Part shown: positions 2,830-60,161 of the stretch, piece after piece
How the letters are laid out: the number at the start of each line of letters is the position of its first letter
Position numbering within the stretch: position 1 is the stretch's first letter
DNA from: Chrysogorgia sp. JL179-B06
Lineage: Eukaryota > Cnidaria > Anthozoa > Scleralcyonacea > Chrysogorgiidae
Direction of reading: 5' to 3'
Length of the DNA: 64,000 bases
NCBI GenBank assembly: GCA_035772405.1
Contig: JAYKKM010000501.1
Location: 1,016,501 to 1,080,500 of the forward strand
Notes under the pieces: model-generated
Seen by the model: only the letters and a program-made list of their open reading frames with translations
Told to the model about the DNA's origin: nothing
Database searches by the model: none
Position numbers and translations under genes: made by a program

Positions 2830-3220
2830 CCGGCGAATTGCAGATTTATAGCACTTTCACTAACCCTGCTTCGACAAACTTCACGAAGCAGGAACGATTT
2901 TAGATGGAGTACAGAGATTATTGCATGGTATGACTTGTTGCTGAACCTTGCGAAGTGCTAAAATAGCACCATTTTTGGTGTCATAATAACCTGGATTTAA
3001 GTGTTATTTTAGCACTTAAATACGCCTTAGTGTTAATATAGCACTTGATTATGGTACTATTTCACCACACAAACTGCAATAATATTTATAAAAATATGTA
3101 TATTATCTATAGTATATGTATAAAAAACTATAATATATGCATAAAAATATGTATATTATCTACTTTATACTATCTATCCAATGAGCGAGTGGATGTTTAT
3201 GAGCTAATAGTAATGTTCAA
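2830..3220. other. Spacer with AGTGCTA(A)AATAGCAC-type hairpins
   Basis: No gene is seen. Between about 2955 and 3050 several copies of AGTGCTAAAATAGCAC and GTGTTATTTTAGCACTTAAA form short dyads, followed by an AT-rich stretch with two near-repeats of ATAAAAATATGTATATTATCTA. Confidence 0.5.
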
Positions 3221-4690
3221 TTATTTAATAAGTTTTTGCACAGAAATCCTTTTCTTTGCTTCTTGTGGCCGACTTAACATAATAGCCTCCAAGAAGGCAT
3301 AAACATTCGATACACCTGGTGTGTATTCCATGTTTAATACATAAAATGTACCAACGAGGAGTACCACTGCCATAGGTATTTGATTATTGGTTACTGAAGA
3401 TAACTCCAGGAATATTTGTCCTTCTACAGCAATGAACAGGGGATCCACGTGGGGAAGATCTCCAGATCCAACAAGCCTTCCTTGGGTAGGTTGTCTTGGA
3501 AACCTCTTCATCAATCGATTCATTGTCCTAAATATAAAAATCAAAACATTATTTATATGGCACAGTACATGGTTTACAAACATGATATTACCTTTTGTTC
3601 CAGGCCTAGAACACAAAGGGGTAGTTAAATACACTTTTAAAATGGAGACCAAAGTCAAGGCTCAGACAAGGGCTCACAGACAGTTTTATTAAATAGCTTA
3701 ACCCATTAACTGGCAGTACCCTACCCTAACAAGAAAAACACCCTGGTGTTTGACACAGTAAAACACTAAAGTAGGGCATGTCCGGGCAGCTTGCCAGCTA
3801 ATGGAATGGGTTAAAAGCAATACGTTTTAACATTATATTTATTGTTAATTGCACTTACATAACACTTACATAACAAATTTTTAGAAACAATAGTTCCGCT
3901 GCCTTCTCCTTTAATACATCTTGTAGATCAAAGCAGCCACTGTACTCTTTATTTATCTCTGTTAAGAGAAAAAGAATATGAATTAAAAATGTGTTAATTC
4001 ACAAGCAATATGCTAGTGCATGGGGGCTCTAATGAATGGTGGACCTAGGGAGGACAAGGCACCAAAGGTAAATTTTGGGAACAGGATACTTTGGGTTTTA
4101 TATGCTCATGAAAAAGTAAGAATTATTTTATTATGTACCTGGTTCTCTATCTGGCTCCTCTTCCAACAACCTCTCCATCATGCTTACTAGGGATTTTATG
4201 CTTCTTTTGGTGCACCCGGAAGCATACTTGATCATTTTCTTCTCCAGCAATTGAAAGGTACTTGCCATATCACGAACCAACTTGTTATTATTTAAAATCC
4301 TTCCAAATTCTGCCTTCACCTATAATAGAATACAGTCATGTGTTTACTAAACCATGTACTGTAGGGAATTAAAAAATGATTGCAACCTCAGCTGCATACC
4401 TCTGAAATCAACTGAAAAGCAGGGTACTCTTCCAGAATTGCCTTGACTCTCTTTGGCTCCTCCAACAATTGCGTATGAGTATGTGAGAACCATTAACTCC
4501 TTAATCAGTGGAAGGTTTTTCTTTGATCTTGCCATTTCCTTGACCAATACCTTCTTATGCTCTTCGCAAGTCTCTGGTGTTTCCCCCCTCGGGTAGTTGA
4601 GGACAATCATTTATCTTTCTCTTCTTGGTAGGTTCTGATGTAGGTGTCACAGAGTTTGATCTTTTAGGCGCCCGCGTAGCATCTTGAAAA
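3221..4690 (-). pseudogene. SAMD3-like multi-exon pseudogene
   Basis: Minus-strand pieces in order give a basic NLS-like PTKKRKIND (near 4620), then after a frameshift NYPRGETPETCEEHKKVL with a helical block (4610-4470), a second frameshift into a block ending in a KAILEEYPAFQL motif, a further piece at 4319-4131, and a C-terminal exon at about 3530-3221 with VDPLFIAVEGQIFLELSS and YVLNMEYTPGVSNVYAFLEA. This order (YP..E..E.HK..LV.EM, EYPA, then a hydrophobic C-terminal module) matches multi-copy SAMD3-like proteins of fish and cnidarians; no SAM domain is visible here. A related C-terminal exon, FIAAEQKI..KLS, lies at 19603-19935. Function of the module is unknown. Frameshifts make this copy non-functional as read. 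Exon edges are approximate. Confidence 0.5.
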
Positions 4691-4699
4691 CTCAAAATG

Positions 4700-6189
4700 C
4701 CACCAATCGCAGAGTTGTTTATGAAATCAAATCAAACTTGGCGTGTGCGTGGATTTCATGTTCCTTGCGCTTGTCGAATTTCAATTTTTAATCTTGCGTT
4801 ACGTGTGCCGTGTTTTTCGATTGACGACTTTGCGGGTCTTCAATGACCCGTTTTAACTGCGCCGGTCGGGAAAGAGTTAATTAGTGAAATTGTTGCTGAA
4901 ATTGTGTCAAAATTACACTTCACACTGCAGTCTGTTCTACATTTCAAAAACTCAAAAAGTAAGCAGTAGCAGCTACAGAACTTGTGTAAATGTTTGGCAG
5001 TAATACCATAATACAGAACAGACCACAGAAGTGGGAAGCTTGACTGTGATGTAAGTTTATTAACCTAGTTCAAAGTGATAGACAAACAAGATTATTTAAT
5101 CAGGCAATAAGTAACATGACATTTGAAAGACAATTAAGGAGATTTTGTAAGGGTCTGTTCTTATGGTTTAGCAAGATCTACAGGATATTTCAAGATTCGT
5201 TAGCATCATGTTTAGAGAAACTTCAGAATTCTATTTAGGATCCTGTTAAGGCGGCGCCCACTTACGGTATACATGGTTCAATTCTTGCTGTTACCATCGC
5301 CCGTGGGGATTTTCAAATTTAATATTACTTAATTGCACTTTCCCTGCTCCCCGGTAAGTAAAAAAAATTTAAAATGCAATTCCCCACCCCGGGGAGAAAA
5401 ACTAAAAAAGTTTTTTATATACATGTACATTTAACAAGTTGTAAAGATCACAGGAATCAGCTTAGAAATACTTTTTCTTCCAACTAGTCAGCAACAAATG
5501 CACAAGTTTTTCCAGAGAAAAATTTAAGAAACTGGTTGCTGTTTGACACCATCTTTCACCCCAATATCCTTTGTGTTCAGGTTTTATATTCCGTGGGACC
5601 AGACGGTCAACACCCACGTTTGCCCTGGGGGATTGAACCATGCATTACTGGGAGAATATTAACAGGTCCTAAGACAACTGTCAGGTTACTGTGTCCTCAT
5701 TGTCTTTACAGGGAACAAATTAGTATAAAATATTTAAGAATTAAAATACAAATTGGCAAAATGGGACTACTATTATGGTAGCCTTGTATAAACACTGTAA
5801 CTGACTGTAATGTTCTGCACCAATATATCACTTACGGTATATTTAGTATTCCTTCTAATGTCTAACTATATTTATTATATAGCTACTAGTAAGATATGAG
5901 CTATCTCACAATTTCATAAGCTCCTCTACTACTAGGCTAACACCTGATATCCTAGCAGTAGAGAAAAACAAGATGATGGTGTTTTTTTTTTTGGCCAACA
6001 AAAGCTGAAATCAATGGGGTTTTATAAAGAAACCCCAAACTGACTAAGTGTTTGGCTATATAATAAAGCAATTGTACCATTGCTCTTGTTGTAGATTAAA
6101 TAATTGCCAAAACAGGAATATGAGCTCATATACGACTCAAGCTCATGGTATACATACATACTTTATTTCACGTCCCCATGGGGACGAAT
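4700..6189. other. Spacer without recognised gene
   Basis: Mostly AT-rich non-coding sequence. Short frames near 5536-5781 show no family features. A purine/pyrimidine-biased CCCCGGTAAGT / ACCCCGGGG region near 5345-5400 hints at a decayed repeat. I see no gene. Confidence 0.45.
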
Positions 6190-6286
6190 TGTTAAATATA
6201 TAGTTATTGTTAAATTAGCTATTGTTAAATTTGTTAAATATATAGTTATTGTTAAATATATATAAGGAAATTGTTAAATATATAGC
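6190..6286. repeat. TGTTAAATATATAGTTAT tandem repeat
   Basis: Four to five imperfect copies of ATTGTTAAATATATAGTTA, some interrupted, immediately after a GTCCCCATGGGGAC palindrome at about 6172-6186. Confidence 0.7.
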
Positions 6287-6452
6287 CGAGCAAGTATTTT
6301 ATACACCACATGAGTACATGTACGAGGATGTATTGCCTCCACTGTGACTTTGACTTCAATAAGCCCATCACTTATTTTTGCAATTTGCACAATATCACAA
6401 CTGCCTTTGATTTCGAGACAGATGGTAACTTCTAGTACATTACTATATAATG

Positions 6453-6969
6453 CACTGGTCAGTGGAAAGCCCCGCACCCCCATACCTGGGGAATAGCCGG
6501 CATTTATAGGTGGATTAGACCATCTTTTACGCCATGGTACCGGGCCGGGGGCTTTTGACAACAATAGCTACATATGTCATTATTACCGGGGACTATTGGC
6601 AGACAAGGTTGGAAGACTGGGTTTGAATGCTCAGTCAGCTAAGATTTGGAATCCAATATGGAGAATATGGAGTCACAGAGAACGGTAATTGATCACATCA
6701 GATATTGTATTTAAAGCTAAACAATAGTTTATATTGATTATGACACAATTTTTAATCTTGACATTCTTGTTGATAATAAAATAATTGTTTGAATTATTTC
6801 TGATGGCTCTCATTTATATGGCCCTGGGGGCCGGGGCATTAATTGTGTTTAGATGCGTGAGAATGCCACGTATATCGGGGAATTATATCAATTTAATTTA
6901 GCACATGCCTTGGTCTAATGCCCTGGTATTCCCCGGGTAGGGGGGTGCGGGCCTTTCCACTGACTAGTG
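6453..6969. mobile_element. MITE with CACTRGTCAGTGG termini
   Basis: The left end reads CACTGGTCAGTGGAAAGCC followed by CCGCACCCCCATACC, and the right end is its inverse: GGTAGGGGGGTGCGGGCC, then TTTCCACTGACTAGTG. The 517-bp interior contains only a 96-aa minus frame (6274-6564, partly outside) that I do not recognise. CACTR termini suggest a CACTA-related element, but no clear short target duplication is visible. Confidence 0.55.
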
Positions 6970-7142
6970 TATAAGTATGCCAATACGTTGCCTAAATAAC
7001 TAGATAAATACCAACACACTGACTAATTAATAATTTGACAAATGCAATTCCACTGACTAGTGCATAAGTATGCCAATACGTTGCCTAAAAAACTAGATAA
7101 ATACCAACAGACTGACTAATTAATAATTTGACAAATGCAATA
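6958..7142. repeat. 93-bp direct tandem duplication
   Basis: Two copies of a 93-bp unit starting CACTGACTAGTG(T/C)ATAAGT sit back to back (second copy from 7051) with only a few substitutions. The first copy overlaps the right end of the CACTR MITE, so the duplication happened after that insertion. Confidence 0.85.
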
Positions 7143-7146
7143 CAAG

Positions 7147-7401
7147 TCAACTTACTATTTTGAAGTCTGTGTTCTCCTTTCTGAGCTGAGCAATTTCCAT
7201 TTGCAAATCTTTTATGGCCATGTGTATTTTCTCATTCTTATTCAGATCTGGCTCTTCACTATCTGTATCACTGACCTGATCAGTATCAGATGTAAAATCA
7301 CAGGTGGTTTTCATATTATTATCACAGGTGGTTTTCATATTATTTAGCATTTTTTTGTAGGCTTCCGTTTCTGCTTGTTGTTTGGCATTCTTAGGAACCA
7401 T
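7147..7401 (-). CDS. Coiled-coil exon, unknown product
   Basis: An 84-residue minus-strand frame starting MVPKNAKQQAETEAYKK contains an internal 8-residue duplication (NNMKTTCD twice, from a 21-24 bp repeat at 7300-7345), an acidic Asp/Ser/Glu stretch and a C-terminal heptad-rich segment (IKDLQMEIAQLRKEN) suited to a coiled coil. No stop follows directly at the 3' side in the frame before a plausible splice donor, so it could be a first exon. Such coiled coils occur N-terminal to BEN or similar domains, but no such domain is seen downstream. Confidence 0.35.
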   Translation of the reverse strand: MVPKNAKQQAETEAYKKMLNNMKTTCDNNMKTTCDFTSDTDQVSDTDSEEPDLNKNEKIHMAIKDLQMEIAQLRKENTDFKIVS

Positions 7402-8109
7402 TCTCTACAATATTAAAACAAGTATATCAAACAAACACTTCGATTGCTGGACCATTTACTGACAAGTGTCAGTCTTGGAGATAACAGAATTGATTGCAAG
7501 TGTGAATTACAGAGCTTTCTGCAGAATCCACAGAACAGATGGAACTTCGTCATTTCATGATAATGTCTTGTTTTCGCCAATAGGCAATGATAAACTTATG
7601 CAGATATTTTTATCTTATGATGAAGAAATTCGGCTATTTGTTTACCACCTGTGTCATGTTTACCATCTCAAAACCATCTCAAATATGTGATAAAGCAGGC
7701 ACGAGAGTTTTATATACACTTTACAAGCTTTCTGCATACAGACAATGTATGGCCTAAAAAATTCATAAAACATTCTCAAAACACCACCTAAAAACACAAA
7801 TAAGGTGTAGTTTCTCTAATAGTCCCTTGTTTACTCATTCGTTATCACTTCGTTTCTTCTTTCTTTTGTATTTTATTCGGTTCATCAATTGATCGACCGA
7901 AAATTTACGCATCAATTGATCGACCGAAAATTTACGCATCAATTTTTTACCTTGGCCTTGCATTGCATAGTTTTTTTTTATTTCCACCTTTGATATAGGC
8001 TTGTTCACAATCATATCCGCAAAAATCTTTTGAATACTGGTAATATGTGTTTCCGAGAAGAGGTCACTACTTCCCCATTCAGTAGGTGGAACGATACTCA
8101 GGGAGGATT
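7402..8109. other. Spacer with a 27-bp direct repeat
   Basis: No gene seen. A 27-bp direct repeat containing ATTGATCGACCGAAAATTT occurs twice at about 7883-7937. The sequence up to 8109 adjoins the hAT insertion and probably once continued directly into 11001 onward. Confidence 0.5.
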
Positions 8110-8504
8110 GTTCGTCACAGGGGCGGTTTAGGAAATTTTTTAACTATGTCCAAACTGACCGCATTTCTAGGGGGGTACGGGGGCCTGCCCCCCCGAAAAT
8201 GTTTTTAAATTTGGTTGTCTGAAATGGCATTTCCTGCATTCTGAAAACTATTCAGCAAAAATCTAATAGTTCAAACTTGTGTTTTCAATTAAATATTTTA
8301 TCGTTTTTAAGGGTTTTTGTGTTTTGGCATTATATTTTATTATTTTTGGAGACACCTTTTAACTAAGGAAATACCATGGTTTTGCTCCATTTCAGAGCTG
8401 ATGTCAGCATACCTAAGAACACTGTTGTACAGTGAAACACTGAAACCGACATGGACAGCCAAGGCTCACAGCCACTTTATTTGGCTGTTCGTCCCTATCT
8501 AACC

Positions 8505-8855
8505 TAACCTGTCTGGTTTTTAGTAGCCTGTGCACAATACCGGAGGGTTACCGGATGTGCACAGGCTAGGTTTTGAGGCACTGAGATACCCCCTTTATCT
8601 CAATCCAACCAGACATTGTCTGATTGGAAGAAGCTTTATCATACCACATGGGACATTTCATGGACATAGAGGAGCTCATCTCTCTACATCATCTTGGTCA
8701 TCCTAAGGTACACTATGCCACCTATCTAATCTGAGCTGTCTGGTTTTGAGGCACCAGATACCCCCTTACGTCTATACAACCAGAAATTGTCTGATTAGAA
8801 GAAGCTTTATCGTACCATATGTGACATTTCATGGACACATCATCCATCTAACTCA
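8505..8855. repeat. Internal duplicated block of hAT A
   Basis: Two diverged copies of a block beginning CTGTCTGGTTTT.AG and including AGAAGCTTTATC(A/G)TACCA and GACATTTCATGGACA lie at about 8505-8690 and 8725-8855. The first copy carries an inserted hairpin made by GCCTGTGCACA and its inverse TGTGCACAGGC. Confidence 0.6.
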
Positions 8856-9469
8856 CAAAAACTGGTATCTCAATAAAGAGGACCCAATCTGTATACAAAC
8901 ACACTAAAATAGTAACTGAAACTTTTCAAACTTAAAAATAGGTATGCTTGGTGTACTTTGACATACATGTACCTACTCCTCCAGTAATGTGTATGTATTA
9001 AGGTATTTGATGTGCCCACTAACTGGTATAAGCAAGTGTACCCTGCAGGTAAACTCCTGATTTTTTGGTCATGTCATCATGTCCATGTTTTGATTGTTGA
9101 TAAAAAAATGATAGAACCTTGATTAATTATATTATGTGAGGGACATAATTTGCAGACAATTAAGAAGAATAGGAGATTTATTATTACAACATACTGGTAT
9201 ATCATTATTTGTCAACATCATTATTTAACTGGTATAGCTGGTGTGCAAAAGAGGAGTTTTTTTGTTGACCTAACAGTTGATTTTGAAGTGAAGGTTCCAT
9301 ATACATTACTGTTTGCCACCACATGATTGGAAATATTTGGTCATTTGGTGTTGTTAACTTTGAATGAAATTTTATTTGAAAAAATAACAAACTATTATTG
9401 TGCATAAAATATTTATTGCTATAATACAAAATTAATTACATTAAAATGACTAAATCAACTAAATGTCTA

Positions 9470-22515: not shown

Positions 22516-22929
22516 ATGAATGTCCTGGTGATTGGAGATTCAATGGTGAAACACATAGAAAATAGCAAAATTGGAAGAGCTGCAAGATCCAAGGCTACCT
22601 GCCACTCATACACTGGAGCAATGGTTAATCAAATTGCCCAAAAGATAGATGAGAATTGGTCTACAAATCAAAGATATGACACAGTAGTGCTTCATGTAGG
22701 AACAAATGACCTTGTACACAAAGAACCTGAAGAAGTGGCATCAAGCATGGAAAAAGTTATAAACAAAGTCAAAATTCAGACAAAGGAAATGGCAGCATCC
22801 AGTGTAATCAGAAGGTATGATGGCAAAGTTAGTAATGATAAAGTAAAAATATATAATAATTTACTTCATGGTTTATGCTCTAAACATAAAATCACATTTA
22901 TTGATAATGACAAATGCAATCCCAAATGA
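22516..22929 (+). pseudogene. LINE A ORF1 SGNH esterase-like domain
   Basis: The frame begins MNVLVIGDSMVKHIENSK, with GDS being block I of SGNH/GDSL hydrolases (Ser nucleophile), and then VVLHVGTNDLVHKEP, block III (GTND). A typical C-terminal block with DxxH is not preserved. CR1/L2-type elements encode such esterase domains in ORF1. It connects to the preceding 22188-22565 frame by a frameshift. Confidence 0.75.
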
Positions 22930-22958
22930 CAAAGGTTTCAAAATGGTTTCTCTAAATA

Positions 22959-23571
22959 TTGTTAGTTTGTTTAAAAAAAATAGATGAAATTAGTTATTCA
23001 GTGTCAAATAAATACATTGATCTAATTGCTTTTAATGAGACAAGACTGGATGCAAGCATAACAGATGGCATGATCCACCTCGATGGCTATGATATTGTCA
23101 GAAAAGACAGATCAAGGCATGGGGATGGTGTCTGTATTTATCTGCATAGCTCCATCAATTACCAGGTTAGACTAGACCAGTGCCAGATGAAATAGAGGCA
23201 GTTTGTGTCGAAATTGTTAAACCTCATAGCCGGCCATTTCTTGTTGCAACAGTTTATAGACCACCAAATGCATCATCTGAATTCTTCGAGCATTTGGAAA
23301 AACTAATTAAAACAGTTGATGATGAAAACAAAGAAATTTATATTCTTGGTGATCTGATTCAGATTTGCCAACAAAGAAAATTAGATCACTGTATGAATTA
23401 TACCAGTTATCTCAGTTAATTGATGAGGCTACTCGGGTCACTAAAACATCTGCCAGCCTGATTGATCATATAGTTACAAATACACCAGAGAAAATCTCAG
23501 ATTTAGGTATCATTCGTACAGGAATCAGTGATCATAGTGGTATTTGCCATCAGAAAAATTCATATTTCTGA
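22959..23571 (+). pseudogene. LINE A endonuclease (EEP) domain
   Basis: Three overlapping frames read in turn: IDLIAFNETRLDASITDG with the catalytic Glu of the ETxL block, DGVCIYLHSSINYQVRL, then VEIVKPHSRPFLVATVYRPP and, in the next frame, VTNTPEKISDLGI and ISDHSGI with the catalytic SDH. The GDLN block reads GDLI and continues out of frame. The domain nicks target DNA for priming. Two frameshifts (about 23185 and 23370) destroy it. Confidence 0.75.
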
Positions 23572-23579
23572 GAAACAAG

Positions 23580-25000
23580 ATGAAAACATAGTGGAAATTA
23601 GAAATATGAAAAACTTTGATGGCCAAAAATTTGTCCAAGATTTACTTAGTCAGCATTGGGAATATGTATACTTTTTGGCCGATAATCCAAATACTATGTG
23701 GGAGATTTGGAAGAAATTGTTTGAGGAAGTACTAAATAAGCATGCACCCATACAAAAAAAGAAGATCAGATAAAAATAAGTCCCTTGGATTACTAGTGAA
23801 ATAAAAAAGCTAATATATAAGAGGGATAGATTTAAGAGAAAAGCTATTGAAAAAAACCTTGAATCAGATTGGGTTGTGTATAAACAGACCAGAAATGAAG
23901 TAAATATAGAAATAAGAAAAGCCAAAAAAGAATATTACCCCAAGAGAATTGCTGGTCAAAAACATAATCCGAAAAAGGCTTGGAAAACAATAAACAACTT
24001 ATTAGGCAGACAAAACAAACTGACAAAAGTCATGAGTTGAATATAAATGGCAATAATTTGACAAATTCTGATTTGCAGAGGGCTTTAATGAATTATTTTA
24101 TTGGTCCTGACTTAGCTAGCAAAATTGACACTTCAAATTATAATTTTGAAGAATATATTAAGAAACCTAAATCAGAATTCACAGCATTTGAGTCAATTAC
24201 TGCTAACAAAGTTTATGATCTCCTACGTGGCCTTTCTAGTGCAAAAGCCACTGGCATTGACAAAATTTCAAGTAAAATTTTAAAACTAGCAGCACGTGCT
24301 ATCTCCAGTTCATTAACTTATATCTTTAATCAGGCTATTACATTATGCACTTTTCCTGATGAGTAGAAAAAGGCAAGAGTATCACCTGTATAAAAATGGC
24401 GAAACAAATTTGCCTGGTAACTACAGGCCAATTTCCGTTTTGTCAGCTGTTAGCAAGGTAATGGAAAGAATTTTATATGACCAACTATATGATTATTTTA
24501 CAAAATATCAGCTACTTAGCGATTGTCAATTTGGCTTTCGTAAATTTCACTCAACTGCTACAGCATTATTAGACGGTACTAATAGTTGGTACGTGAATAC
24601 TGACAAAAAATTGTTTAACTAAGTAGTATTAATTGACTTAAAAAAAGGCATTTGATACTGTCGACCACCAAACTCGAACTTTATGATGTAAAAGGACATG
24701 CTTTATCTCTACTAAAATCATACTTGATAAATCGCACTCAGAAAAGCCAAGTAAATGGAACTATTTCATCGGAGCGATTGATCAAGTGTGGTGTGCCACA
24801 AGGCTCTATTTTAGGGCCATTATTATTTTTGTTATATATTAATGACTTACCTCAATGTTTAAACAAAACACAACCTCGATTATTTGCTGAATCAAAGATG
24901 TTGAAGCTGCAATGAATTCTGATTTAGAAAACCTCAGGAAATGGTTAATTGCGAATAAACCTTTTATGATTGACTGGTTTGTATTGGGCACTTCTGCTAA
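23580..25000 (+). pseudogene. LINE A reverse transcriptase
   Basis: The linker (MWEIWKKLFEEVLNKHAP) is followed by LSSAKATGIDKISSKILK, then YRPISVLSAVSKVMERILY and QFGFRKFHSTATALLD, KCGVPQGSILGPLLFLLYIN, and RLFAES followed by KMLKLQ. The last should be the FADD catalytic block, but the DD is missing, replaced through a small deletion and frame change; EAAMNSDLENLRKWL picks up in another frame. Frameshifts also occur at 24366 and 24622-24652. Past about 25000 the thumb and C-terminal regions are lost. Confidence 0.8.
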
Positions 25001-25010
25001 TGATCACTAT

Positions 25011-25344
25011 AACAAGTAACTGTAACAAAGTGAGGAGGCAAAGAAGATCCAATGAAATAATAAATCTTTCTATTTCATTGTGCCTTCAACGGCATTTACA
25101 GTAGACAGTATACTACATTTGTTTTGCTAAAAATACTATGACAACTTATTCAGATAATTATACACTTTTTGTTGTGTTGTATTTTAACATTTATTACTGT
25201 ACTGTATAATTTTTTTGTATTTGGTGTTGGCAGTATCTAATTGCATACATGTGTGCGATATGATATAACTTATTGTAATTATATAGCTAAATGTAGGCCT
25301 GTTATATATTTATATTTTTATTCCTTTTAATTTTATTATCTTAG
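25011..25344. other. Spacer between LINE A and HECT exons
   Basis: AT-rich, no gene recognised. It ends in a pyrimidine-rich tract and TTAG acceptor just before 25346. Confidence 0.4.
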
Positions 25345-26538
25345 TGTTGCAAAAAATGATTGTGAGGTGTCTATTTTCAAATCTGATGAGGCACTTGAAA
25401 TGCTGGAAGCTGTGGGTTACAGAGGAGATCCGACAAAGGTATCAAAGGCAAAAATAGAGAATAAAAACAGTGTCCTGCAGTATGTTATATTGCATGTAAT
25501 TTTTATTTTGAGTAGTAGATGAAAAGATATAGCATAATTGCAAAGATGATTGCAATAATTTGATCTTATTTAGTACAAGTGGTTAACTGAAATGAAAAAT
25601 TTGTATACTTTTTTCGTAAGTGAAACATAAATTGCCAAATTTTGGTACATTTCCAGTTTCTCTAAGGTACAATTCAAGTGGCACATATCCATAAAAGGCA
25701 GGGTGGAATATAAATAAAATACTATATATAAATTACAATAAGAGGTGCATGTACTGCAAAACTAGTGTATTCATGCCATTCAACAATTAATAAATAGGGT
25801 TCCCAATATTCACTATTTTTATTTTGAATTTTATGTTCAGATCATAAAAGCAAGAATCGAACCACTGCTTACAGCACTAAACGAGATAATGTCAGGTTTG
25901 ACAAGCTACAACATGCTTCATGTTATCCAAGAGAACGTCGAACTTTTCCGTGGTGTGTTCTGTCGACCGTATATTTTTCATGGGATCATACAGCCTTCTT
26001 AGATATATTAATGCCGCAGTTCACTGGTGAAGGAAGTAATAATAAAAGTCTTTAGAAGTCACAACATATAAATGTTTTCTAGACTTTACAGAGGCTTGCT
26101 GCTATGACGGTAAAACAGAAGAATTAATTTAACCACATTAATACCGAAGTAATTTAACCTGATTTTCATATAGAATATGAATATAACATTTCAAGTGCCG
26201 CCAGCCCTTTGTAAGTACCATATGAGTAGTACAGTATTTACTCTTATTTTTCCAATATTTCAGATGCATCTGTATTACCGGTAAGTCTGAAAGAGTTGAT
26301 GCAATTTATAACTGGAACAGCAACAGCGCCTTGTCTTGGGCTCCCAAATGATTTGACAGTGGAATTTATCCATGGATGCAATATGAAATGCAAATGTCTT
26401 CCTACCGTCAGCACATGTGCAATATGCTTGCGATTGCCTGTCCACATTAATACAGAAGAAGAAATGCGAGAAGCATTTTATACAGCAATTAAAGGTGGAA
26501 CAAGACGCCCGCTAGGCGTTAACTTGGGCTACTTTTAG
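25345..26538 (+). CDS. HECT-type ubiquitin ligase C-terminal exons (HECT A)
   Basis: Three candidate exons: 25346-25480 (FKSDEALEMLEAVGYRGDP), about 25841-25990 (LTSYNMLHVIQENVELFRG) and 26264-26538, whose acceptor TTTCAG precedes DASVLPVSLKELMQFITG. The last exon holds LGLPNDLTVEFIHGC, then CLPTVSTCAICLRLPVH, where Cys of STC matches the thioester cysteine of HECT ligases, and ends in a short tail to a TAG at 26536. The layout matches the C-lobe of G2E3-like HECT proteins. The N-lobe and any start lie upstream or are lost. It faces the IS3EU-like transposase at 29002-30215, the same arrangement as at 56748-59913. I cannot tell whether it is expressed. Confidence 0.6.
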
Positions 26539-26539
26539 G

Positions 26540-27195
26540 GATGGCGGGTATGCATTGGTGGCATGTTAGACATGTTAGACAGTTGGAATTAGAAAACCCG
26601 CTCACTTGTCTTATAGAACAAAGGATAATTTTTAATGCATTGATTTCTGTAATCAGGCACTGAAGGCATTGTGCAGCGCTCGTTAGCTAGATATGCGGAC
26701 GAAGAAACGCAGGCTAGCTCCCCCAATGCAGAACGCCTGACACGCAGACGAAATTTAATGTAAACATTAAACACGGCAATGCTATTTTTTCTAATATCTG
26801 TTCGATTGAAGGTCTTCGTGTGTCAAAATTTATATAAAAAACAACGGCAAGGTATACGAAACATATCTGTTACGAAATTACATCGGTTTAATGGACATAA
26901 AAGCATTAAATCATCGGGTAAACGACGAATAGATCTTGAAGCCATGTCCTTTGATTTTAGAGACGAGTCTCGCTTCAATAATCGCTAATACGCATTTTCT
27001 CATATAACATCTGATCTTCACATTTTAAGTACACGAAACCTACAGCGTTCGATTCGCCAGATTCAAGTGATCATTTCGATATAGAATTGATTTAAATCGG
27101 ACAAAAACACAACGTTTCATAATGATAAATATTACGGAGTTTCGCGGGTAAATGTCAACACAACATAATATAATATTTCCCTGTCCTTCGGCTGT
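26540..27195. other. Spacer after HECT A
   Basis: No recognised gene; short frames on both strands lack family features. Confidence 0.4.
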
Positions 27196-27197
27196 CC

Positions 27198-27530
27198 TTT
27201 CCGTCTTCATGATTGATCTCTCATCTGTGTTTCTCTCATCTTGGAGAGAATCTTTGCAATGGTTTGCGGGTTTACAGGTCTCGGTAAACTTTTCCAACTG
27301 CGATTCATTGCCAATAAAACGAAAGTCCGAACTCGCTTCAATTCGCTTGCATGCCTTGCAACGATTATGTTGTCATGTTGACGTTTCATCCACGGTTCTG
27401 CGAGTTGTTTCTTTAATCTCTCATCTGTGTTTCTCTCATCCAGTTATCCTGGAGAGAATCTTTGCATTAGTTTGCTGGTTTACAGGTCTCGTAAATGCTT
27501 TTCCGACTGTGATTCATTGACTATAAAACT
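27198..27530. repeat. ~105-bp direct repeat pair
   Basis: A block starting ATCTCTCATCTGTGTTTCTC and containing GGAGAGAATCTTTGCA and GGTTTACAGGTCTCG occurs at about 27213-27310 and again at 27415-27525, with several substitutions and a small indel. The 122-aa plus frame covering both is a repeat artefact. Confidence 0.75.
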
Positions 27531-27879
27531 GACTATAAAACTGCCGGAAATCAAACTGCCGGAAATCGCCCACGCAATAATTACATTCTCTCGACGAAAA
27601 AACGACGACGACGACGAACACAGAAATGAAGCCGGATTTAAGACTTGTGCTTACCACAGGTAGCCCAAGTAATTAGATTTGGGCTATGTTAACATAACTT
27701 TAGATCACATAAAGTATGCCAGGAAACAATAATTACGTTGGACATTGCATTATGCAGCAACTGAAATGTGCTAGGTCACCTAAATACTCTTCACAGAAGA
27801 GCACATGTTAGCAACATTCAAATGTTAAGATTATACTATATTATTGATCATACTATATTATACATAATAGAATTTTAAC

Positions 27880-28645
27880 TTAAAAGCCCATATGCAACGA
27901 AAAAATTGTTCTTTAATATTCCTCTTTCGAAAGTAGGTTAAGAGAAATGAATAATCCAAATTCAATTGAGAGTTTATTAATTCTTGTTGTCTAGATACGA
28001 GTATTTGAAATTTGAGATTGTGGACGTAATTAGTTGTTTAGGCTTCACAAGTGCGATCTTTTTTTGGTGTATATTTCAGAAAGTATTAGTTTTGGTCTGT
28101 GACAAAACGTAAAAGCTGGAATGTTACAATTTAAATGACCAATTTGTAAGTCAACATTATTAGTTACCAAGGCAACATGTTACGTTCCAAGCATCTTGAT
28201 GTTCAGACTCCATAGCTGTTCTACATTATTATTGAATTTCAACAAGTTTTTTTACTCAGATTAATGACTTTGTAACATGAAGCAATATCACACAAGCTTA
28301 AAAGCAACCAAACCTTGAGCAGGAAACATGAAAATTGCTTTTGATTAAAAAACAAGAAAGAGTCTGGGACTGAGTGCATTTCCATGGTAACCAAAAAGAG
28401 CAATGTGACAAGGTACTGTAATCACTGATATTATAACAGTGGTCAAAAGTGATACTTCTGAAATATAGACCTAAACAGATTTCACTGATGAAGCTTGCAC
28501 AACTATACTATAGTGACAGCGTCAAACTCACTTTCGAATGTTCATAATGTACTGTAGACAATGGGAAGTGCTAAATAAAAAATGGTTTGGGATTGGAAAG
28601 AATTTTAAGACGAATATGGAGGGACAATTTCCCTACATAGGCACT
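27880..28645. mobile_element. Possible decayed TTAA-type MITE
   Basis: The left edge reads TTAAAAGCCCATATGCAACG and the right edge, inverted, TTGAAGTGCCTATGTAGGG, resembling the AGTGCCTATGCAATG terminus of the 18343-18976 element. Arms are short and diverged, and the flanks are not perfect TTAA. No gene is seen inside. Confidence 0.35.
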
Positions 28646-29001
28646 TCAAATTGACATTTATTTTTTGATATATTCTTACATTAACTGCATAATCAGCAAA
28701 AGGTTTTCACAATTTCTGAAATCTGTGGTTAAATTACATTTCCATAGTTTATGTTCCATAGTATGTTACTGTTTTGTTACATTATTTGATTTTTATGACT
28801 AAAAAAATAATAGCAACAATCATGTCATTGTCTAGAAAATCAGAATAATATTCATTTGCATTACAGTAAAATAATGCCATTTGTGCCAAATCACATTAAA
28901 ATGGCAGTGGGTTTTCATATTGTGTCCAACTTGTTTAAGTTTTTACATACAGTACCTACTGTATACAGGTTGATTACAATGCACACATTAACATTGAGTT
29001 A

Positions 29002-30215
29002 TGAGCCTGAGACTTGCATGATTTTTTCATACATGGATCTTGCTTGTACCCAGTCGTGTGGTGGATACTGAAGATTTTCATTTCTAATGACATACTGAAA
29101 ATACTCGTTGATTTCCTCATCAATATCATCATTGGTTAGTTCTGCTTCCACATGAACATCCTTCTTATTAAGCATACCAATGATGGCATCTTCAGACACT
29201 TCAATGCCACAGTTTGAATACCCATGAACTTGAGGTAAGAAGAAAAGCTCGTCAGGAACACCAGATACTTCACAATGCTTGGACTAACTTTATCCAATTC
29301 CATTTGCAATAGGCAAGAGTAGATAAACCACACACATTCCATGTGAAGGTGGTTTCCTAGTTCAACCTTCCCTTCATGAACCAGTGCTTTAAATTGGTCA
29401 ATGACCCATGCTGTAAAACGTCTTTTGCCATGGGACAACCAATTTTCAATTATTTGATTTGAATGAGATGAGCAATATTTATGTGCATTTGTGCTCCCTG
29501 CAAATGAGCATTGGATGCCAGCTAATACACCATTCTCAGTACCACAGTCTGTTTGAACAAGGGCAGGCCACATTCCATAATCCTCTACAGATCGTAAAAA
29601 GTAACTAGCAGGAACTACTGGATTGTTGTTACTTTTGGAAACTTTTAACCAAATTATTTTCCTTGAAAATCCGTCTATACAACCATGAACTGGTAAACCG
29701 TAGGGTTTTAGTTTATCGTTTCCGTCGACATGCCAAGCAGTGTTAGGTCCTGCTGACGTGTAAACTCTGCGTTTCAACTTCCTGGCCTTCCTCAAAGCAG
29801 AGGCTTCGGGATCCAACTCTTTCAAAATGCGCATTACAGTATCTCGGGGAACGGTTATATTACTTAGCTTATTCCACATCCCTCGGTACCCAAGCATACA
29901 TGAAGGACCTTGGATCTCATTTTTAATGATTAGGCGTACTGTGTCTTCAGATACAGAACCATCTCTCTTTGCCAACCCATAATCACATAGTCTTCTTTTT
30001 AACGTCCTCAGACTCAACGCCATACCATGGTACTCATTCAAGAATAAGATGATGGTTTGATAACGAAATCCTCTCCGAAAATAATACGCGATTGCTTCTC
30101 TTTCAGTTGAAAATGATGGGAATGTACTCTCCTGGCTTCTTCTTTGAGTGCCACATCGAGTACAAAATGATTCCTCATCGTTCATAAACTCTCTCCCACA
30201 TCTGCAGCAAAACAT
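29002..30215 (-). pseudogene. IS3EU-like DDE transposase (copy A)
   Basis: The minus-strand ORF starts at an ATG at 30215 with a zinc ribbon (CCRCG then CTRCG, residues 3-22), then a helix-turn-helix region (YYFRRGFRYQTIILFLNEYH), and an integrase-like catalytic core: WHVDGNDKLKPYG with the first Asp, CIDGFSRKIIWL, ALVQTDCGTENG with the second Asp, and NQIIENWLSHGK with the Glu. These are the blocks of IS3EU-type eukaryotic transposases. A small deletion and frameshift near 29290 separate the C-terminal part, which continues as EVSEDAIIGMLNKKD to a stop near 29002. It should cut and paste its own element. It converges with HECT A, and a minisatellite lies behind its start. Confidence 0.7.
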
Positions 30216-30328
30216 TTAACAAACATCGATATAATAGATAGTTCGAACATAATCGAACGTGGAACACCAAAGTACTTCAAGTAATCTTTGAGTTGGAATG
30301 ATAAAACCGCTGGCCAAATAGGATTCGG

Positions 30329-30536
30329 ATTTTGAAATATATTTTCGGATTCCGATTTGAAAAATATTTTCAGATTTGAAATATATTTTCCGATTTTGAA
30401 ATATATTTTCCGATTTGAAATATATTTTCGGATTTTGAAATATATTTTCCGATTTTAATAAATATATATTTTCGGATTTGAAATATATTTTCGGATTTGA
30501 AATATATTTTCAGATTTAAAATTTATTTTCAGATTG
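30329..30536. repeat. AT-rich minisatellite behind transposase A
   Basis: About ten imperfect copies of a 19-22 bp unit, TTTTCGGATTTGAAATATA, start roughly 110 bp upstream of the transposase ATG. A comparable array occupies the same relative position at the other IS3EU-like copy (59958-60095), suggesting a subterminal region of the element. Confidence 0.85.
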
Positions 30537-30539
30537 GCC

Positions 30540-32131
30540 CTTCTCGGCTTCCGTACATAGGGACTGTTGCTACATAACATTAGAGAAATTAAAAATGTTA
30601 CTCGCTTGTATTTTATTGTATCAGTTTATTCACTACAAATGTAATGTTAGTATTACTGTCTTTCAAAGGCGAAACAATACTCACAAAATAATTTGAGTCA
30701 AGACTCAAATTAATTTAATTATTACACATACCAAGTGTAAGACTAATTTCAGATTCAGCTATACTTCCATTACTTTCATCTTCCTCTGCATTCGGAGCTT
30801 GAAATCAAATGAAACTTAAATAATTAGTACAAATCCAATTAAATTTACCTTTTTATTTTTTTTTTTTTTTTACCTTTCGATTTAGTAAATGATTTTATAA
30901 CTCTCACATCATAGTATACATGAAGCCTAGTTTACCTTCAGAAGTCTCAGTACTAGTAATTGTACACTGGTTTGAACATGAACTGACACTTTCTTTTGAA
31001 ACAACAAAACAAAATTAATACACATAATTATGATTATCACATATGCCGATATGGCTCAATGGGAATGGGGACCCAAATTGATAACCTTTCTCAAAGGGAG
31101 ACCCAAATTTGCACATTAATTGCTGCTACACAGCAACATGCCCTAACTTTCCCAGCCCTTTTATTACTTTACTCTGTGAAATGGTGGATGAGTTTACACA
31201 TGAAGGTCAGATGCTTGCACATATATGGGTAAGAAGACACACAGGCAGATAGTTTGACCTATCAATTAAATTTAATCCCTACTGTTTTATTTTACTCTGT
31301 CAAAAGCCAAATGATTTTATTTGCCAAGAGGAGATTCTTGGGCACAAATGGGTTAATAAGCATGAGTCTCTACTTCACATGTAAAATCATTTGGTATTAG
31401 ACAGAGTAGTGGTTATCAGTACACAGCTCATTAACTGAACAGTAAACACCCTTGCGAATATAATTTTCTTGGGTGAAGCAGAATATAATACAAAGAACTA
31501 CATTGTACTTTAACCATTAATTTCCAAGAGTGTGTTCATAGTTCTGCTGTTATTTCAAGATGATTAACAAGTGGACATATATCCTAACTACTGTGCTGCT
31601 GCTGTTTTAACTTTATTAATGCTGCTGTCGTATTTGTAAGGTCAGATGTTCGGCTGGATTGCCCCTGGTATAAACCATTAAGTTATTGCTTATATTAAAT
31701 ATAAGTCTTCAGTGATCAGTGGTGGAATAAATTACGAAAGAAGTTAGACCTGAACTGCACGAAAGTTTTGCTTACAAATTTTATGGGTAGTCAGTCTATT
31801 CAAAATCAATAAATTATTCTTACCTTTGCTTGGTACTTCACTGAAACTACGTTGAGAAAAAAAAACGTTCTTAGCAATGTTTGCCTTGATTTCTTCGGGG
31901 CAGATGCCAATGTTGTTTTGGAAAATCATGAGCAAGCCTGGTAACCATTTAGTGATAAAGTCCCAGGCTCCTTGACATAGTACTCGGACGTAGGTCGGAA
32001 ATGAAATACGTACGAGGTACTCACTTTAGATGTCATTTCTTATGCTGAGGATGACTAATAAACATGTAAATAAACATTGTTTGTGGTTCAGTACATAAAG
32101 CATTGTGCGTTCTTGTCCAGGAGAAAGTCAG
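30540..32131. other. Spacer without recognised gene
   Basis: Contains a poly-T run near 30860. Two frames with GGCTCAATGGGAATGGGG near 31053 slightly resemble a tRNA-derived promoter box, too weak to call. No gene is recognised. Confidence 0.45.
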
Positions 32132-46853: not shown

Positions 46854-48383
46854 ATGGCGGGTGGTTGGCTTTATTGTCGCTCCGCATATCTGGTTCTACT
46901 TTTATTTATTGTTTTACTCTTGGAGTCCCAAAAACCATATGTAATTTTTCCAAATGGTTCTTTCTCAATGTTGCTCACTCTAAAGCTAGACGTTAGACAG
47001 TATCCGGATAGAAATTCATCGGGTTTACCTCGACATTCGCACAATGTGGGTTTATCGTCATCTTACAAGCTAAAGACTGGACTGCAACTACTAAATATTA
47101 CCTTGGTAGCACTGATATTACTATCTGGTGATGTGAGCTTAAATCCTGGACCCGTTATTGACCCATGTGGACTGTGTTTAAAAGGCTGTCGAGTAAATCG
47201 GAAAGCGGTTCAATGTGATGAATGCGACGTTTGGTTTCATGCCAAATATACTGGTATGACAAACCATGAATATATAGAACTTTGTGAACCGTCTACTAAC
47301 TGGTCCTGTTTAAATTGCTTGTTCCCTGGTCTAACTTCTTCTGAAGAAAACACTCCTACGGATTTAACGAATGAAAATCTTCAGCCGACATTTCCTAAAC
47401 TCTTAAGCGTTTTTAAAATTGGTCATCTGAATGTTAATAGACTCTACAACAAAATGGACAGTATAAAAGATCTGCTACTGGATTTTCAGCTTGACATATT
47501 CTCTCTTTCAGAAACTTGGCTCTCTCCCGATATCCAAGAAAATGAGATTTTGGTACCAGGATATAGTCTTGTAAGAAAGGACACAGTAAATAATAATCGG
47601 AAAACCAAAGGAGGAGGTATTCTTGTTTACATAAGAAATGGAATAAATTATACTTCTCGGGATGACCTAACAAACGGCGAAGAATGCATCTGGATAGAAG
47701 TTAAACGTACTAAAGGAAAACTTCTACTTATTGGATCTTATTATAGACCTCCTGATACTAATCTTGATAAATTCATCACTGCTTTTGATCAGTCATTGAA
47801 ACTTGCAAATCCTGACTCGTATGAAATTACCGTTCTCGGTGATTTCAATATTGACTTCAGTTCTGTTGCACGTATGAATTCACCTAAACAAAAGCTTCGC
47901 TCATGTTTACTGTTAAACGGTCTCGAACAAGTTATTAAGAAGTCTACTAGGGTTACTGAACATAGTAACACACAAATAGATCTCATTTGTGTTAATAATG
48001 AGCATAAAATCGTGCAGTGTGATGTTATTGATACTTTCATTAGTGATCACTGTATAATATTTTGCATGGTAAAGGCTGGAGTCCCGAAAATGCCAGCGCA
48101 TGTTTGCGAATCGAGATCGTATGACAAGTACGTCAAAGAAGCTTTTATACAAGACCTCTCAAATGTCCCGTTGAACATTATTGATACAGCAGTTTGCGTT
48201 GATGACGCGGTGCACTCATGGGAGCGTTTATTTACTGATGTTGCTGATATTCATGCCCCAGTCAAAAAGCGGAGGACGAAGGGTCATTCAACACCCTGGA
48301 TAACAAATAAGTTAGTGGAAATTCGCCGTGACCCTAATTATCATCAAAAGAAATCTCGACAAACAAATTCACAGTACCACTGA
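46854..48383 (+). pseudogene. LINE B ORF: 2A-like, PHD finger, endonuclease
   Basis: The 509-codon frame has an N-terminal hydrophobic region (AYLVLLLFIVLLLE), a 2A-like SGDVSLNPGP at residues 91-100 (47124-47153) with likely ribosomal skipping before the last Pro, a PHD-type zinc finger (CGLCLKGC, CDECDVWFH, WSCLNC, about residues 105-155) and an EEP endonuclease (IGHLNVNRLYNKM, SETWLSP, YYRPPDTN, GDFNID, ISDHCI). The product would start retrotransposition by nicking DNA. A TGA at 48381-48383 cuts the frame; the next ATG at 48387 is in the same frame, so a nonsense change interrupts one ORF. 2A-like sequences in invertebrate LINEs are known; the Ser in place of Glu is a variation. Confidence 0.85.
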
Positions 48384-48386
48384 AGT

Positions 48387-48766
48387 ATGTATAGGAAACT
48401 AAGGAACTATGTAAATCGTGAGGAAAGACGACTTAAATCTGAATATTTTTGCAATCTCATTAACGATACCAAATCGGACAGTGCACTCATGTGGAAAAAT
48501 TTGAAACAAGTACTACCAAATTCAAAGAGTGTCATTGGTGTTCAGGCAATTAACTCCAAGAATAAACGTTTTACCAAACTTGAAGATATTGTTGAAATTT
48601 TCAACAAGCACTTCTCGACCGTTGGTCAAAAATTGGGTAAAATGTTTAGTAATGTTATTGATGATGAACAGTTTCCATTGAAAACTGACCTGGAATTTAC
48701 CCTAAACTTTGTCTCTGAAGAATTTGTCTCTACTCAACTTAACAATCTAAAGCCAAATAAATCAAT
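48387..48766 (+). pseudogene. LINE B linker to reverse transcriptase, 3'-truncated
   Basis: It continues in frame after the nonsense codon: YRKLRNYVNREERRLKSEYF, KNLKQVLPNSKSV and FVSTQLNNLKPNKSIA, which is the block just before the RT's LxxxKAxGxD region. The coding sequence then runs directly into TATC/TCTG microsatellite at 48767. RT is absent. LINEs usually lose their 5' ends, so the loss of the 3' half points to later recombination at the microsatellite. Confidence 0.75.
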
Positions 48767-48897
48767 AGCTATATATCTATATATATCTATATATATCTAT
48801 ATATATCTATATATATATCTGTCTGTCTGTCTGTCTGTCTGTCTGTGTGTCTGTGTGTCTGTCTGTTTTTCTATATCTCTCTATATATCTCTATATA

Positions 48898-48935
<38 letters not shown>

Positions 48936-48944
48936 GATCTATCT
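48767..48944. repeat. TATC/TCTG compound microsatellite (left flank of LINE C)
   Basis: TATATC units, then (TCTG)n, TCTATATA and (TATC)n fill the space between LINE B and the start of LINE C. The array resumes at the 3' end of LINE C (55885). Confidence 0.9.
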
Positions 48945-48947
48945 AAG

Positions 48948-49368
48948 ATGGCGGACGGTCATGCTGTTGAGTGCTCCGTAAACGATGACCTTCTAGCTTC
49001 TTGTTCAAAGCTTCCCACATCACAAATTCCCCTCTCAATTGAGAAGGGACGTAGTGGGACTAAAATTAAATGGCTCAGCGATCTGCCTGAGCTAAAATTG
49101 TTCTTGGAATGCCAACTTAAGTTATCAGGCGAGTGGTCGTTTTACAAAGAATAACGGCGGCTTTCATGTGTTGAAATGTGATACGGTCACGATTTCATTC
49201 TACCCGACTACGAAGACAGTAAACGTACAAGGTGCAATGAAGGATGTAGTGAAGAAAAATATTCTAAGCTATGCTACTTTAGCTGAAGATTCTAGTGCCG
49301 AAACAACTGCGCTAGTCAACCATGCAAATTATGGCAACTTCGAAGACGAAGCTAAAAGCGAAGCATGT
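48948..49368 (+). pseudogene. LINE C ORF1, 5' part
   Basis: The frame from ATG at 48948 reads LSDLPELKLFLECQLKLSGE and stops at TAA at 49154; a one-base shift at about 49150 restores the frame into NNGGFHVLKCDTVTISFYP, which continues to 49368. LINE A has the same block. Immediately after, hAT B interrupts ORF1; the reading frame resumes at 51739 with the expected AAGKQTQDKD sequence. Confidence 0.75.
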
Positions 49369-49733
49369 GATGCCAGGGGCGGATCTAGGAATTTTATCCC
49401 ATTAGGCATAAGTGACGATATAACTAGGGGGGTGGGGGGGCATGACCCCCCGAAAATATTTTGAATCTTGGGTCTCTGAAATGGCATTTCCTGCAATTTG
49501 AGAGCACTTTTAAGCAAAATCTAAAGATCTTAAATCACGTTTTTGTATAGCATGTCCCATAATTTTTAAGAAACATTTTGTCCAAATGAAAATTTTTATT
49601 AAGTATTAAATGCCTCCATTTGAAAAACTAATAAAATAACAATATAATTGGCCATTTTTCTCTATGTCAGAGATCATCAGCATGCCTAGGAAGCATCAAA
49701 ACATGATGTGTTTGATGAGTCCAACATGGATGG

Positions 49734-49875
49734 TCTGGCCTAATTGAAAAGTATACCCTTACAAAAAAATTCAATAGGAATTGCTATTAGATTTTTGGCC
49801 AATTCCTATAGGAAATGCAATTTTCCTATAGAAATTCCTATAGGATGTTAAGGGTATACTTTTCAATTAGGCCAG
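49734..49875. mobile_element. Small palindromic MITE inside hAT B
   Basis: CTGGCCTAATTGAAAAGTAT followed by ACCCTTA is repeated inverted at the right end. The loop contains three CCTATAGGAA-type dyads. Confidence 0.7.
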
Positions 49876-51240
49876 GCCCAGTCAATGTGCCAGGCCGTCC
49901 ATAAGGGTACCCCTTCAGGGGGTTTAAAATCATAGTTTTCCATCTCCTAGGTTACCCAAAGCCGTCTGGTTTTACCTGCCTGTCACTTGGTTAGAAGAGG
50001 CTGTAAAAGCCGCAGACCATTTGGGATATTTCATGGATGTGAAGTAGCTCAGTTCTTCACACCATCCCAGTCATTCTAACACTTTCTGGACCCCTCCCCA
50101 TGGGATCCTCACCTTATCCTACTTTAATCTACTCTAATTAACTATCCAGTTAAACGAACCTACATATCCAATAAATTAAATGTAGCGACCATCAAGTGTT
50201 TGGAAACTTTACAATGTCTGCTAGTGCTGCGCACAATATACATTATAGATTTATATAAGTAATAATAATAAAACATATTATGAGCATTATACAATAGTCT
50301 CAATGCGCTCTTACATTGTAATACAACAATATACAATACTCATATAATCTCGATTTTGATTGGCTAAAAACCTACAGACAATTCTTGATGTCTTCTCAGA
50401 AGTAATTGTCTTTGTGCGGCTTTACTTCCTAAACTCCCTAAAGGCTTCTACATTTACACACGATATCAAGAATTATCCAGATCTCTGTCAATGTTATCTG
50501 CCTCAGCCTTTGGCTTCAGCAGAAAACATTGACCTGGGTCTGGATAATTTTTGACATCATGCTCAGCCTCATCCAATAATTGTCTATTACTACTACATAT
50601 AATTATACTAGTTTATTATTATCAAAACTACAGTACTACATATATTATATTACCAATAAAACCATGATAAACAGATGTGCATAGATAATCTTTGTTCTTA
50701 TGCAGTGCAGTATAAATGTAGACTATTAACAGTATTGTGAAATACTATAAATCAAGGGAAATAATTTATAATTGTAGATAAGAATTGTAGTAAGAATTAT
50801 TTTTATAAAGATAAACAGTGGAGAATATAAGTTTAAAAGGTGCAGATCAAAACATCAAGACCATCAAGATAAATCCATTCTTCTGTTGACAGAAGAATAT
50901 TTATGAATAACCTGTGGAACATTCAATTTCCTGATGAATAAATTAACAACGCTTTACACCCGCAGTTTATGTTAACAAATCAATATAAATACACAACTTA
51001 TTACTAAACATAAACAGAAAACAGAGACAATCTGCGAGATGAAATATATTATATATTTATCAACAAAAATTATACACAATTAATATCCAGCAGTCGGCTT
51101 GTCGGTTTATAATAAAAACTTTGAAATTTAGGAGCATTAATAGGCAAACTATAAAGCTTACCTTGGAGTGAGCCTTGGGTTCTTGTCACTTTTCGCGTAA
51201 AGAGGAACATACAGTAGCTCTCGATCGGCGCTAAAATTCT
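49876..51240. other. Interior of hAT B without gene
   Basis: AT-rich, no recognised coding sequence. AACATTGACCTGGGTCTGGA pairs with GATCTCTGTCAATGTT as a ~26-bp hairpin arm at about 50470-50555. Confidence 0.5.
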
Positions 51241-51420
51241 TGCAGCGAGCATTTTCTCGCAAAGGCAAATGAGGCAAAGCAGCTAGGCAAAGCAAGGCAA
51301 ATGAGGCAAAGCAAGGCAAATGAGCTCGGAGCAACTTCGGAGCAACTTCGTAGCTTCGGCAAGTAAGGCAAAATGGCGCAGAGATAAGGCAAACCAATCA
51401 GCGCTCAATACAGATAAGGC
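51240..51420. repeat. GGCAAATGAGGCAAAGCA minisatellite
   Basis: About six imperfect copies of AAGGCAAATGAGGCAAAGCA in hAT B, followed by two GGAGCAACTTC units. Confidence 0.75.
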
Positions 51421-51738
51421 AAAATTCACTCACAAAATTTCCGAATGGTCGAAGGATCCCGAAGCTGCAGGTAGCCTGCAGTGCAGGCGTTTTGGGTTTG
51501 TGGGCTCAAAAAAGAACCTGGGGACGAGGTTGGAGACGAAAATACCCGATCGAGGAACTGCAATAAATTATAGAAATTGATTTCGCTCATCGTTGTTTGT
51601 GAGCAAATGCTAATCTCATTTTCTGAATTATATTATTATTTACGCCTTTCTCTTCCCTACATCGCGTAAAAATTATCGTCATTTGAGTTTGTCACCTTAG
51701 GCGGCTGCCTTATTTGCCTAACGTTAAATCCGCCCCTG

Positions 51739-52779: not shown

Positions 52780-52860
52780 AATTTAAATGGTGCAGATAGT
52801 AGAAATAGCAATAATCAACCTTCTCAGCCGGCTCAGAGCCAAAAATCATTTGATGATGTA

Positions 52861-60095: not shown

Positions 60096-60161
60096 ATGGA
60101 CCACCGTATAATTCAACAGTGTTTGTTATTTTAACATTATTTTTCAATATTGTTATATTAG

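Follow-up and report, generated by a model that had tools for sequence, protein, structure and literature searches.

A 64,000-nucleotide stretch of the Chrysogorgia sp. JL179-B06 genome (contig JAYKKM010000501.1; hereafter the window) contains two cassettes, A and B, in each of which a HECT gene faces a DDE transposase gene. These cassettes are best explained as belonging to IS3EU-type elements with two convergent genes, a transposase and a HECT ligase, a reading to which we assign a probability of about 0.9, and that HECT is a carried, working gene of such elements we regard as almost certain. A and B would be decayed IS3EU-type transposons, with a convergent DDE transposase and HECT ligase as the usual gene set here. 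Both window copies are dead; the argument is carried by loci elsewhere in the genome. An earlier note on the window had described a HECT carboxy-terminal lobe (C-lobe) on the forward strand facing a transposase on the reverse strand, which the Pfam matches to PF00632 and PF24764 in both cassettes confirm, and had taken the two of two copies as an argument that HECT is carried by the element. Two copies are thin evidence alone: a right end was found for each of A and B, but pattern and inverted-repeat scans of the window gave no left end for either. Coordinates are window positions unless a contig (C) or locus (L) is named.

The genome searched comprised 781 Mb in 522 contigs. Pfam HECT was found at no fewer than, that is at least, 130 places (best 129 of 539 candidates scored), PF24764 at at least 150 (best 150 of 1738), a zinc-ribbon transposase query at at least 105 (best 100 of 1757, merged into 100 loci), and a clade HECT query at at least 94 (best 90 of 690). 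All association counts refer to these best-scored listed loci, with near-identical copies counted apart. A listed HECT (171 merged loci) lay within 5 kb of 55 of the 250 merged transposase loci, compared with 0.55 pairs expected by uniform density in any orientation, and all 55 pairs were convergent, so convergent HECT is enriched beside the transposase. By subset, 26 of 100 zinc-ribbon loci and 29 of 150 PF24764 loci were paired (10 and 18, respectively, before the clade HECT query). In the reverse view, 28 of the 130 Pfam HECT places had a listed transposase within 5 kb, as did 33 of the 79 clade HECT loci. The range from 5 to 10 kb added six pairs among the 150 PF24764 loci, of which one was convergent and five had both genes in the same orientation. 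Those five, with the genes about 6.9 kb apart, are one five-copy amplified family (C263:1428990, C428:5800387, C437:3348986, C450:3347694 and C494:671913), a layout that the remaining listed pairs up to 10 kb do not share.

A fairer sample was given by the 30 best PF24764 loci (L009-L038), picked by transposase score alone. An in-house hidden Markov model (HMM) of the HECT C-lobe was built from four seeds (A, B, L039 and L040) and then iterated over the fetched loci, which included these 30. The iterated profile identified HECT in 20 of the 30 within 1.5-kb flanks, all on the downstream side and convergent; the four-seed profile without iteration identified it in 14, all convergent, two of which (L009 and L015) are seed places. 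When one locus from each of two no-hit families (on C310 and C82) was read beyond the 1.5-kb flank, HECT was detected in both (2.1e-19 and 1.1e-13), which brings the total to 22 of 30 transposase-ranked loci with convergent HECT. As a control, the eight best HECT-ranked loci (L001-L008, 1.5-kb flanks) showed a transposase at L007 only, the same place as element L039. Since HECT is found at 22 of 30 loci and with both transposase types, zinc-ribbon and helix-turn-helix (HTH), the earlier description of HECT as cargo was right as to carriage but is too weak a term, and HECT looks like a standing component.

Sixteen loci fetched at 7.5 kb or more were scanned for element ends. Six complete elements of 5.2-7.2 kb were found, with inverted ends TAYGG...CCRTA (TATGG or TACGG) matching at 30 of 30 bp and exact 6-bp target duplications, none of the six palindromic (see the table). 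Terminal repeats and target duplications differ between the elements, and in all six both HECT and transposase lie between the ends and are not split by them; HECT is therefore part of these elements, as a second gene, rather than adjacent to them, and its carriage, as the earlier note had supposed, is borne out. One of the six, L052, was the top-ranked zinc-ribbon transposase locus outside the A family among the matches listed, and was chosen when no HECT was listed there. A seventh element, L047, has matching outer terminal repeats (2601-9247) around both genes, and its flanks do not match. A TATATA pair in L047 was rejected as a duplication since this palindrome lies in the interior of the repeat, as do AGCGCT in L040 and TGATCA in L048; a palindrome inside a perfect inverted repeat mimics a duplication, which explains the inner pairs in these three loci. 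Convincing ends were absent in nine of the 16 loci (L041, L042, L043, L044, L046, L049, L050, L051 and L053). A pair of ends in L041 and L042 with an exact CACGTA/TACGTG flank was also rejected, with 17 of 30 bp matching, within sequence common to both loci; this long common stretch begins at TATGAGGGG and its other end is beyond the fetched stretch. No ends were found for the partial elements on C310 and C82.

According to PMC10045372, IS3EU elements have TA..TA termini and usually 6-bp target duplications, and rust-fungus IS3EU families are described in PMC12730594 with TAYGG..CCRTA termini and repeats longer than 30 bp. The six elements share with the superfamily, as portrayed there, these termini and the 6-bp duplications, and the right ends of A and B fit. 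The transposases gave matches to PF24764 and weaker matches to rve, and may be integrase-like DDE enzymes related to IS3/IS481, as in IS3EU; the IS3EU assignment is drawn here from ends and duplications.

HECT scored above the Pfam cut-off in A, B, L039, L052 and L053. In L039 it is a single frame of 644 amino acids (PF00632, 4.4e-21), and in L052 it is accompanied by Zn_Ribbon_1 (1.1e-5) and CUE (PF02845, 5.5e-8; HECT itself 2.5e-11); CUE was also found in L040 (1.2e-5). A single column is invariant in all 20 C-lobes aligned, among them A and B: a cysteine, taken to be the catalytic residue of HECT C-lobes. From domain and cysteine, the product is predicted to be a HECT-type E3 ubiquitin ligase. 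The codon test, in which the 22 most similar comparisons were listed, is limited by saturation. In 11 of the 22, between families and not all independent, the proportion of synonymous differences (pS) was 0.74-0.86, that is saturated, and that of nonsynonymous differences (pN) was 0.21-0.38, while seven were between near-identical copies. Two L046 rows (0.53) are not valid: the stretch concerned contains a stop, which is taken to shift the codon register.

The earlier note had also placed a minisatellite behind the transposase. An array is indeed present just upstream of the transposase in both cassettes (period 19-20 bp in A, starting 109 bp upstream of the open reading frame (ORF), and 20 bp in B), but it is no separate thing: the terminal inverted repeat contains it. 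Tandem Repeats Finder (TRF) detected arrays of about 20-21 bp at either end of L045, L048 and L052, within each terminal repeat and inverted relative to each other, and L047 showed the same. Of the 30 loci L009-L038, 17 have an array of period 20-23 on the upstream side of the transposase; in L039, L040 and some others this side gave no such array. The period is 17 bp in C185, 19-21 bp in most other copies and 23 bp in two, and the unit sequences differ between families with the period staying near two helical turns. This near-constant period of about 20 bp despite differing sequences suggests that the conserved property of the ends is spacing. In three database proteins, P0066, P0116 and P0136, short repeats were seen by eye in the upstream parts of the predicted proteins; those of P0066 and P0116 are seven residues long, as an upstream 21-bp array would give, which suggests that the same end arrays may occur in other organisms.

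In L052, the element on C226, the two genes lie on opposite strands, with the transposase start at 1501 and the start of the HECT frame at 6722, and the first 37 residues of their products are identical (MFCRSCGNELQETNVFCPTCGRQVDGRGPQAAAEEVS). This shared start, which gives both proteins the same zinc ribbon, is encoded in the inverted repeat (arms 1156-1625 and 6598-7066). The database HECT proteins P0122, P0123 and P0125 also begin with MFCxxCG, as does the transposase P0059, and the transposase P0116 has this motif further inside its frame. We tentatively predict, at a little under even odds, that the ligase assists transposition by acting at the ends of its own element. There its substrate for ubiquitination would be the transposase itself, the whole transposition complex or some host factor, and the shared zinc ribbon and the arrays would bring ligase and transposase to the same DNA. 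In a more specific form, which we hold to be unlikely as a whole, a coding start in the terminal repeat would fuse one zinc-ribbon DNA-address module to both transposase and ligase and keep it the same by repeat symmetry, so that each element would supply its ends with a ubiquitin system of its own, with the arrays (about two helical turns per unit) as landing sites.

Alternatively, the ligase could act in counter-defence by marking for destruction, at any place in the nucleus, a host factor for silencing or repair, with no need for a seat at the element ends. Viral ligases mark host factors for destruction. This alternative, which we judge possible at odds clearly short of even, is in keeping with the retained catalytic cysteine, with CUE in some elements, and with the strong HECT divergence between families, which would suit changing targets. 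It would also agree with fungal IS3EU, where the abstract of PMC12730594 reads the TET/JBP dioxygenase as helping transposons escape methylation. The zinc ribbon common to the L052 ligase and transposase argues the other way, since it suggests addressing to the element itself.

Trees of HECT and transposase were compared for 21 loci, the C-lobe alignment being short (about 70 residues). In the transposase tree, a zinc-ribbon clade (A, B, L044, L052, L053 and L054; support 1.00) is set apart from the HTH type. In the HECT tree, L044 and L053 group with the HTH-type L026 and L043 (0.98), L052 with L023 and L031 (0.86), and L040 with A, B and L054 (0.82). HECT and transposase distances, compared after L012 and the duplicate places L007, L009 and L015 had been dropped, were correlated weakly over 18 dereplicated pairs (Mantel r 0.25, p 0.016) and more strongly over all 25 pairs, near-identical copies included (r 0.65). 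As the trees disagree in places, HECT can be exchanged, and the two genes are read as having probably coexisted for a long time with occasional exchange. It is improbable that HECT is a host piece that was picked up and multiplied while useless to the element: the decay of HECT in A, the crossing of transposase types in the HECT trees and the two of 22 codon comparisons above 1 would fit such passive carriage, and against it stand the occurrence of HECT at 22 of 30 loci across diverged lineages, the convergence of all pairs within 5 kb, the invariant cysteine, and pN well under pS in 11 of the 22 comparisons. Chance neighbourhood or segmental duplication of one region, which would explain why three family-A copies share flanking DNA and L041 and L042 a long stretch, is ruled out by the element ends: terminal repeats and target duplications both differ among the six complete elements, and 55 of 55 pairs are convergent.

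A number of observations weigh against two-gene elements with a working, self-addressed ligase. Ends with exact duplications were found in just six of the 16 loci fetched at that length, HECT was not shown at eight of the 30 transposase-ranked loci (L014, L017, L018, L025, L027, L029, L030 and L036, within 1.5-kb flanks), and 102 of the 130 Pfam HECT places and 46 of the 79 clade HECT loci were without a listed transposase within 5 kb. Beside the disagreement of the trees, the ratio dN/dS exceeds 1 in L033-L034 and L033-L032, and the 11 favourable codon comparisons stem from a few families. CUE is present in two of six scanned elements and was found in none of the scanned parts, some partial, of L039, L045, L053 and C185. 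Just one complete element showed a zinc ribbon encoded in the repeat and shared by both proteins; in L053 (by eye) and C185 (under the Pfam cut-off) a zinc-ribbon-like start is on the HECT frame and not on the transposase frame, and the HTH-type elements show no zinc-ribbon start by eye.

Among the closest known systems are the fungal TET+ IS3EU elements, which, according to PMC12730594, carry a TET/JBP dioxygenase together with an alpha-kinase gene opposite to the transposase. Both systems combine a transposase and an enzyme gene in opposite orientations in one element, but the accessory genes there are the alpha-kinase and the dioxygenase, and here a HECT ligase. A term search found no mention of HECT in the main text of PMC10045372 or PMC12730594, and no publication combining IS3EU and HECT was found in a literature search that left Repbase and Dfam entries outside. 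Bacterial IS3/IS481 are compared with IS3EU in PMC10045372, and transposase B has a weak HTH_21 match under the cut-off; the present elements differ in being eukaryotic and in having a second gene, long inverted repeats with arrays and, in some copies, split, intron-like frames. If the two-gene plan holds, these would be transposons with their own E3 ligase, and a role of ubiquitin in DNA transposition could be tested with a ligase evolved for it. Relatives of the L053 HECT named 'G2/M phase-specific E3 ubiquitin-protein ligase-like' were found in soft corals, fishes, mussel, oyster, sea cucumber and sponge (at least 81 matches). Such animal genes are HECT relatives, and a transposon location is shown for this genome's copies; some apparent expansions of this family in other animals may be transposon copies, a warning for annotation. 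In Cottus fish, 27 candidate repeats left unclassified had matches to proteins, and PMC5638112 names G2E3 as one of them.

In cassette A, the C-lobe carries the active-site cysteine in STC, matches the in-house HMM at 7.2e-23 (A being one of its seeds), and is also among the genome-search matches listed, at C501:1042742-1042999. It is the sole Pfam-backed HECT exon of A, as Pfam gave none in the frames 25331-25522, 25766-26002 and 25828-26055. The transposase is 76% identical to P0002 with 86% of the query covered, and its ORF has 359 amino acids versus 417 for the nearest database protein. The right end, CCGTA at 30555, is just outside the array, and the relative on C105 has the same terminus. 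The closest relatives of the A transposase among the matches listed are on C105 and C70, which share the flanks of A with the window at 94-99.8% (blastn); the three are therefore not independent insertions. Relative to both, A is without about 1.33 kb at 24961/24962 (blastn), by eye the end of a long interspersed nuclear element (LINE) and a HECT N-lobe piece in C105, and C70 is without the transposase start, array and right end that A has. LINE-like reverse transcriptase/endonuclease frames were seen by eye at 22516-25040, left of HECT A, and the relatives of A have them too.

In cassette B, the C-lobe matches the in-house HMM at 2.8e-24 (B is likewise a seed), and Pfam gave no HECT match in the exon at 56672-57202. 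Of the broken transposase frames, 58781-59347 matches PF24764 (5.8e-21) and 59542-59913 matches Clr5 above the Pfam cut-off (4.2e-5), with Zn_Ribbon_1 (9.9e-5) and HTH_21 (0.0032) both under it. The terminus of B resembles the ends of the complete elements on C226 (TACGGTGGCCCATAGG) and C185 (TACGGTGGCCCACAGC).

Table. Features of cassettes A and B (window positions) and the six complete elements (length).
Feature	Position or length	Strand	Basis or target duplication
A, possible upstream HECT exon, uncertain	25331-25522	+	open frame; Pfam match absent
A, HECT C-lobe exon	26230-26535, HMM stretch 26284-26493	+	PF00632 9.8e-11
A, insertion of about 1.17 kb in HECT C-lobe tail, absent from C105 and C70	26501-27671	.	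blastn
A, DDE transposase, zinc-ribbon type, truncated frame	29136-30215	-	PF24764 2.6e-25
A, subterminal tandem array, period 19-20 bp	30324-30535	+	TRF scores 238-239
A, right terminus ...GGCCCTTCTCGGCTTCCGTA, IS3EU-like CCRTA end	30536-30555	.	pattern; blastn against relatives
B, HECT exon upstream of C-lobe	56672-57202	+	open frame; by-eye comparison with matching C185 exon
B, HECT C-lobe, active-site cysteine (STC)	57241-57483, HMM stretch 57250-57459	+	PF00632 1.5e-6
B, transposase, broken frames 58781-59347, 59313-59483, 59542-59913	58781-59913	-	PF24764 and HMM pieces
B, subterminal tandem array, period 20 bp	59959-60084	+	TRF score 199
B, right terminus, reading inward TACGGTGGTCCATAACGGC	60085-60108	.	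CCGTA end at 60108
Complete element L039	5176 bp		AAGAAT
Complete element L040	6874 bp		GTCGGC
Complete element L045	5229 bp		GATGTC
Complete element L048	6002 bp		CTCCTC
Complete element L052	6276 bp		GGTTTA
Complete element C185	7202 bp		TGTTCG

Elsewhere in the window, a HECT-like match (6.1e-12) at 1847-2479 on the reverse strand, stretch 2174-2365, was given by the iterated in-house profile only, with nothing in Pfam and no transposase nearby in the window; it could represent a decayed copy or simply a false positive. A 21-bp array of 13 copies at 61471-61764 has a period typical of element ends, although no ends were recognised, and adjoins what by eye is an apparent Harbinger-type transposase. 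LINE-like frames are located at 46854-55722, with PF03372 in 46854-48383 and the remainder assigned by eye.

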